A stretch of DNA of 64,000 nucleotides. Source: DHVE2 group archaeon. Its GTDB lineage: Archaea > Thermoplasmatota > Thermoplasmata > Thermoplasmatales > Aciduliprofundaceae. The stretch is taken from the NCBI GenBank assembly GCA_026993785.1, contig JALWRZ010000007.1, positions 62,001 to 126,000 on the forward strand, read 5' to 3'. This document shows, in pieces, positions 10,309 through 10,746 of the stretch (the stretch's first letter is position 1; each line of letters starts with the position of its first letter). The notes below the pieces were generated by a model that saw only the letters and a program-made list of their open reading frames with translations, made no database searches and was not told the DNA's origin. The position numbers and the translations under genes are program-made.

Positions 10309-10746
10309 GGGAACCACCAGCGGGTTCCCATCCCCCCTGCAACCCTGGGAACCTCCGACGGGTTCCCATACGAGGGGACACCTACGCAGCGCCCTGCTAA
10401 AAAGCAGGGCTTGCTCGCAAATCCGCAGGATTTGCTCATTTCCCCTTTCTAAACCCCTCCCTTTTAACTCGAAATCTCCGGCAGGTTCCCCACGAAGGGG
10501 CATCTACGCAGCGCCCCGCTAAAGCGAGGCTGGCTCGCAAATCCGCAGGATTTGCTCGTTTAGCCCTCCTGCGGATGGCAAGCTCGCATCTCAGATGCTC
10601 GTTCTTCCCTCTACCCCCTCTCCCTTTTCTTTTGAGGGGGGGTTTAGAAAGGGGGGTTTTGCTCCACTTCGAGGTTTAGAAAGGGGGCGTCAGTCCCCTC
10701 CGGGAGGTTTAGAAAGGGGGCTTCGCCCCCTTCGTAGGAAAGGTTT
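10309..10746. repeat. Composite dispersed repeat, copy A (full length)
   Basis: Fills the whole space between the guaB and nnrD promoters. Distal end: GGGAACCACCAGCGGGTTCCC, then a second GGGAACC/GGTTCCC hairpin and CTACGCAGCGCCCTGCT. Centre: two copies of the palindrome GCAAATCC-GCA-GGATTTGC and one GCATCT-C-AGATGC. Proximal end: three tandem modules containing GTTTAGAAAGGGGG, then the conserved end CCCCCTTCGTAGGAAAGG. That end runs into the TATA region (GGTTTAATGG) of nnrD. Copies B, C and D carry the same modules in the same order. It contains no credible gene. Confidence 0.85.

Follow-up and report, generated by a model that had tools for sequence, protein, structure and literature searches.

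Four copies of a composite repeat lie in a 64,000-nucleotide stretch of the genome of a DHVE2 group archaeon (the window, to which all positions refer unless a contig is named). According to an earlier note, the same end of each copy always abuts the TATA box of the next gene. This raises the question of whether the repeat is an upstream activating element that spread together with its promoters, or non-coding DNA whose insertion site is the BRE/TATA edge. We compared the genome of the window (G000; 1.66 Mb in 14 contigs, with the window at G000:C7:62001-126000) with 17 relatives from the Aciduliprofundum/DHVE2 family, 18 genomes in total. The relatives include two one-contig genomes of 1,486,778 and 1,437,090 bp. 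MAG assembly near repeats can be faulty; G007 and G009, each a single contig, show the same features.

Four copies in the window

All four copies were present, and their boundaries were set by BLAST extension. The first, E32 (10305..10750, forward strand), consists of two alpha modules, two beta modules with hairpin strings and three gamma modules, and lies between a divergent pair formed by the 8821-gene, which has an IMPDH-like N-terminus, and nnrD (genes here are the codon-usage calls of this analysis). Its last gamma unit ends in CTTCGT (10730..10735, forward), followed by the nnrD BRE AGGAAAGG and the TATA-like octamer TTTAATGG (10736..10751, forward). With a score of about 2.4 in the fixed, hand-made matrix that was used for TATA scoring, this octamer is weak, the weakest TATA of the four window copies. 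E33 (32463..32834, reverse strand) occupies a tandem site that precedes the HTH gene 32010-32447, with the TATA box TTTTAAAT and the BRE TGGGAAGG of that gene at 32464..32479 (reverse); the upstream gene 32835-33422 terminates beside its alpha end. E34 (40081..40560, reverse) is the longest copy (480 bp), contains a 47-nt tandem expansion of alpha, and also lies at a tandem site, this one in front of the exported-protein gene 39270-40049, whose TATA box ATTTATAT and BRE are found at 40082..40097 (reverse). E35 (44601..44795, forward) has the order gamma, alpha, gamma and precedes the Hjc-like gene at 44831; its CTTCGT terminus, the BRE AGGAAAGG and the TATA box TTTTTAAA of this gene span 44775..44796 (forward). 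The alpha variant GGAACCACCAGCGAGTTCCTTTACCTCCTGCAACC in E35 (44701..44735, forward) matches the tRNA-Pro(CGG) intron of the same genome (94% identity over 35 nt, E 1e-10). In all four copies a TATA-like octamer and then the next gene follow 8 nt past the conserved gamma end, which confirms the arrangement described in the earlier note.

A family of hairpin-built mosaic repeats

With the first copy as query, a genome-wide BLAST search returned 81 pieces, which merged into 41 elements of 50-480 bp, each in one orientation. As the census was built on similarity to this one query, divergent copies may be missed, and the number of elements in G000 is given as at least 41. The elements are directional mosaics of hairpin modules: alpha (~37 nt, GGGAACCACCAGCGGGTTCCCATTCCCTCCTGCAACC; one to several copies per element), beta (a hairpin string that starts with ACGAAGGGGCACCTACGC) and gamma (~33 nt, GGGGGTGTAGAGAGGGGGCGAAGCCCCCTTCGT; 1-3 copies, ending in CCCCCTTCGT). 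As in mosaic repeats of the REP/BIME or BOX-like kind, conserved hairpin modules occur in variable number. Hairpin slots differ in sequence yet pair (CAAATCC..GGATTTG, CATC..GATG, CAATTC..GAATTG). When pairing was counted directly, without alignment, outer pairs were formed in 62/76 cases (19 distinct variants), whereas 2000 shuffles averaged 49.6 and never exceeded 60.

The ends ACGAAGGGG...CCCCTTCGT are common to beta and gamma units, and E21 is a bare palindrome of them. Full composites begin with alpha, which is without an end of this type. The sequence GGAAAGGTTT was considered as part of general terminal inverted repeats and rejected, being present at the alpha end only where a divergent promoter adjoins.

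Matches were found in 14 of the 18 family genomes, whereas 43 genomes from elsewhere in the same order had none. The sole pattern hit outside family-consistent records was one gamma-like unit on QMVF01000084.1, a 4.1-kb contig labelled Micrarchaeota, which is either misbinned or the product of a transfer. An Rfam scan of the window detected SRP RNA only and the repeats match no Rfam family, and our literature search found nothing on such repeats in this lineage. Judging by the positions and exchanges described below, the elements seem to form a mobile repeat family that is site-directed and so far undescribed.

Position and orientation relative to promoters

Every junction was read. A TATA-like box lies 7-10 nt past the gamma terminus (CTTCGT), with a mode of 8 nt, in 35 of the 41 elements, and a gene or tRNA start directly follows 33 elements. 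By a stricter automatic rule, the best TATA match lay at 5-11 nt for 25/36 termini, where shuffled flanks predict 2.3. The position at the promoter edge is thus precise, and the claim that the same end adjoins a TATA box held for most elements; "always" did not, as six are exceptions (E09, E16, E17, E20, E29 and E39, most of them truncated) and at divergent sites the alpha end likewise adjoins a TATA box. On the alpha side, about half of the elements have TATA at a distance of 10-15 nt, counted from the first base of the module. In the relatives, the automatic rule recovered the spacing for 5/34 termini (1.2 expected), many such termini being located at RNA genes.

Because both ends adjoin promoters at divergent sites, orientation is informative at tandem sites only. 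There, 10 of 11 elements agree (E01, E11, E15, E23, E25, E26, E33, E34, E36 and E40; one-sided p = 0.006), and E29 is the single reversed case; the constant orientation claimed in the earlier note therefore stands for tandem sites with this one exception. The genome-wide search suggested there as a check found copies neither mostly away from promoters nor in random orientation. None of the 41 elements lies between a plain convergent gene pair. Convergent boundaries make up 11/68 gene boundaries in the window, which gives a chance of 0.0007 for 0/41, a comparison that is soft since convergent genes here mostly overlap. E36, which at first appeared convergent, precedes the L40e gene, and the nearest case is E26 (G000:C3:136162-136390), which has a TATA box at 8 nt and no coding gene downstream; the region that follows it may encode a small RNA.

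Two further observations concern the flanks of individual elements. At E11 and E40 (G000:C10:434432-434618 and C9:15763-15901), the TAA of the upstream gene lies within CTCTAATGRGAACC at the alpha end, so that a new stop codon may have come with the element. The truncated E39 (G000:C7:~184000) is embedded in ~90 nt of flanking sequence that is strongly conserved between two genera (it is also found at G008:C6) and is followed in G000 by an ArsR-like reading frame; this is possibly a shared mobile segment.

The genes downstream of elements include those for S12, S8e, L40e, topA, CDC48, purC, porG and speD, and also tRNA-Val, -Thr and -Leu. BREs beside elements are skewed to RGGAAAGG, which leaves room for a partial contribution of the element to the BRE or for a target preference. 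These mostly core genes, the constant orientation at tandem sites and the biased BRE are what one would expect if hairpin DNA upstream of the BRE tuned or insulated housekeeping promoters and were kept by selection. We nevertheless consider such a regulatory or insulating element improbable: most orthologous promoters in the relatives do without it, length and module content vary widely, and a promoter role would be meaningless for the copies of these modules inside introns and RNase P RNA.

Promoters older than the elements

Orthologues of nnrD and of the Hjc and HTH genes in the relatives examined carry no element, and ATTGGGAA of the HTH gene promoter is native in element-free G009 too. Twelve further promoters were compared with their orthologues in relatives. 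The S12 promoter (TGAATAAAATTTTTATATRGGC / TGAATAAAATTTTTATATRGGCAGCGG) is identical in G000, G002, G001 and G003; its junction is filled by different modules in the first two genomes and empty in the other two. The SUI1 (CGAAAGTTATAAATAAAGG) and CDC48 (AAAGTTTATTAAC) promoters are native and present in element-free orthologues, and the TATA/BRE of the acylphosphatase gene is also found in such orthologues. The bases between terminus and TATA are native wherever they are comparable, and different native BREs adjoin the same element terminus. Since element-free orthologues keep the same BRE and TATA box, the promoter is older than the element, and these sequence comparisons indicate that the elements were added to existing promoters. 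This contradicts the proposal that the repeat spread together with promoters. A Correia-type element carrying its own TATA was also considered and rejected, given the TATA/BRE of S12, SUI1, CDC48 and acylphosphatase in element-free orthologues.

Empty sites, which the earlier note had suggested looking for, exist in the relatives. At topA, with the same upstream gene, the distance from the upstream stop codon to the TATA box is ~60 bp in G009 (filled) and ~8 bp in G007 (empty). The divergent pair at porG is 78 bp apart in G001 (empty), and in G000 an insert of >200 bp separates the two promoters. The S8e and purC sites hold an element in both G000 and G002; in the remaining relatives that were examined they are empty. 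As gene order is heavily shuffled, clean empty/filled promoter pairs number two only. No target-site duplication was recognisable in the comparisons at topA, porG and RNase P, with few clean pairs among them. The empty topA and porG sites, the near-constant 8-nt spacing and the variety of native BREs all support the note's second proposal, insertion of a non-coding element at the edge of the BRE/TATA; that reading is incomplete, as modules are also found in tRNA introns, at tRNA 3' ends and in RNase P RNA.

Native space around element-free promoters

The positions could also result from random insertion followed by purifying selection, if a very compact genome, with overlapping convergent genes and back-to-back BREs, tolerated repeats only in introns, in RNA loops and in the gap that separates a BRE from the preceding stop codon or BRE. 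Native space can indeed be close to nil. A stop codon directly precedes BRE/TATA at topA (G007) and purC (G007/G009), the porG promoters nearly abut in G001, half of the element-free tandem promoters have <25 nt free, and the median gap between convergent genes is -4. The overall range is nevertheless broad: upstream of the TATA box, element-free promoters have 4-551 nt (tandem) or 26-697 nt (divergent) of free space, and in 15/17 element-free divergent cases the TATA box is 26-136 nt from the next gene start. If insertion were random and followed by selection, spacers of variable length would be expected. Instead, almost no residual spacer is left at elements and the distance to the TATA box is nearly constant, which favours guided insertion. 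Random insertion predicts neither the 10:1 orientation at tandem sites nor the exchange of modules at the same sites, and we regard it as rather unlikely.

Modules in tRNA and RNase P RNA

The modules are not confined to promoters. In many tRNA genes, introns at position 37/38 are made of element modules, with alpha in tRNA-Pro; the delta module AAGCCCCTTTAAAAAAGGTGCTTTACCCC, found in relatives, is the intron of several other tRNAs and shares 97% identity over 35 nt with intergenic elements of G002. The tRNA-Pro(CGG) intron is alpha in G000, G013 and G016 and beta in G002, G007, G009 and G011, and the gene has no intron in G012 and G017. For tRNA-Pro(UGG), the intron is alpha in G000, G006, G007 and G009, beta in G001 and G003, and missing in G004, G008, G010, G012 and G017. 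ARAGORN labels several of the intron-bearing tRNA-Pro genes as tRNA-Leu or -Pyl, including G000:C12:856-975; this misnaming is caused by the repeat-derived intron, and genome annotations may be wrong for the same reason. In the relatives, a module also lies 1-4 nt past the 3' end of nine tRNA genes.

Among 12 genomes, the RNase P RNA is ~290 nt long in G004 and G010 and 355-377 nt in the other ten. The gap is due to two inserts, one at the P3 position and one close to the 3' end, and both match dispersed repeats (up to 95% identity over 41 nt in one example, E 1e-13). The P3 insert is gamma-like in G005, G008 and G013 and beta-like in most others. Unlike the RNase P RNA, the archaeal SRP RNA in the window (50521-50831, reverse) has normal length and no repeat insert.

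Fixed sites that hold different modules, or none, depending on the species thus include the two tRNA-Pro introns, the RNase P P3 position and the S12 promoter. One possible, still tentative reading is that the modules represent a new class of promiscuous hairpin cassette, a single exchangeable set swapped at the BRE edge, the 37/38 tRNA intron and loops of structured RNAs. As part of the same tentative reading, the tRNA introns, RNase P expansions and promoter spacers of this lineage may share one mobile source.

Alpha and delta serve as tRNA introns in several genomes, and large-scale transposition of tRNA introns is reported in Thermoproteales, as summarized in PMC4033280. The repeats might accordingly have spread through RNA, with excised introns or hairpin RNAs reverse-spliced or ligated into RNAs, copied to DNA and recombined, and with the intergenic copies as later offshoots. 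We find this very unlikely because the promoter-edge sites lie upstream of the start site and the common inverted terminus of beta and gamma suggests DNA transposition.

A candidate mechanism

PF01797 (IS200/REP, Y1 transposase) was absent from G000 and from 15/17 relatives, and PF00872 (IS256, Mutator superfamily/p-MULT) from all 18 family genomes. For PF01609 (DDE_Tnp_1), G000 has no intact copy; a degraded fragment of 66 aa (G000:C14:48301-48426) is the sole trace of the three families in this genome. An autonomous partner of the MITE type was thus not found in G000 among these families, and since they yielded no partner enzyme, the mechanism is one that we infer.

The best explanation is probably a lineage-specific set of non-autonomous, hairpin-built mosaic repeats that are inserted and exchanged at edges or removable loops of transcription units. 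The cassettes would be alpha, beta and gamma, with delta in relatives, and their insertion sites the upstream border of the BRE, the nucleotide that follows the tRNA 3' end, the 37/38 intron position in tRNAs and, in RNase P RNA, peripheral loops. The elements would be mobile in trans. By analogy with promoter-targeted bacterial elements and Ty3, the fixed 8-nt position may reflect guidance by the promoter, either as TBP/TFB-bound or as AT-rich DNA. The link to promoters would then be a consequence of targeting to safe sites rather than of an activating function.

Comparison with known systems

Targeting of the promoter edge is already documented for some bacterial elements and for Ty3; for archaeal TATA/BRE promoters, we found no report in the literature searched. 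TnGBS, ISLre2 and ISKra4, which have p-MULT transposases, insert 15-17 bp upstream of the -35 box of sigma-A promoters, mostly with one end beside the promoter (PMC3942029). The elements described here resemble them in the fixed promoter distance (7-10 nt) and in the constant orientation (10/11 tandem sites). However, TnGBS-type elements are autonomous bacterial IS elements and ICEs with their own transposase at sigma-A promoters, whereas here archaeal BRE/TATA promoters, tRNAs and RNase P RNA serve as targets and no transposase was found among the three families searched. Ty3 integration at Pol III genes is placed by TBP and Brf1 (PMC8632968). The likeness lies in precise integration beside a promoter held by TBP/TFIIB-like factors, a harmless site in a compact genome (PMC8632968), but Ty3 is an LTR retrotransposon that inserts 2-3 bp from the start site, and the present elements, which encode nothing, are positioned upstream of the BRE.

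REPs depend on Y1 transposases (RAYT), a family (PF01797) that is absent in G000. Like BOX, BIME/REP and Correia/NIME repeats, the elements are short, intergenic, modular, hairpin-forming and multicopy (PMC3049150, PMC10969869), and the BOX layout A-(B)n-C resembles alpha-beta-gamma(n). Pneumococcal BOX, RUP and SPRITE are over-represented between convergent genes (PMC3049150), where our elements are virtually absent, and Correia elements bring promoters, whereas our elements adjoin older ones. The short palindromic repeats within functional genes known as Rickettsia palindromic elements (PMC10969869) are also similar. They are best known within ORFs, in contrast to the BRE edges, tRNA introns, tRNA 3' ends and RNase P loops occupied here. 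Rickettsia palindromic elements occur inside RNA genes too.

The origin of archaeal 37/38 tRNA introns is still debated (PMC4033280), and the insert position found here is this canonical one. In Thermoproteales, similar introns in different tRNA genes have been attributed to intron transposition (Fujishima 2010, as cited in PMC4033280). The present case differs in that the intron sequences also occur in dispersed intergenic repeats and RNase P inserts, and in that sister species have unrelated modules at one intron site. In near-identical tRNA-Pro genes, the same site either lacks an insert or carries one of two modules that are unrelated to each other and that are both dispersed repeats elsewhere in these genomes. 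With this pattern, the gain and exchange of introns through a mobile element can be tested directly, also in the cultured Aciduliprofundum lineage.
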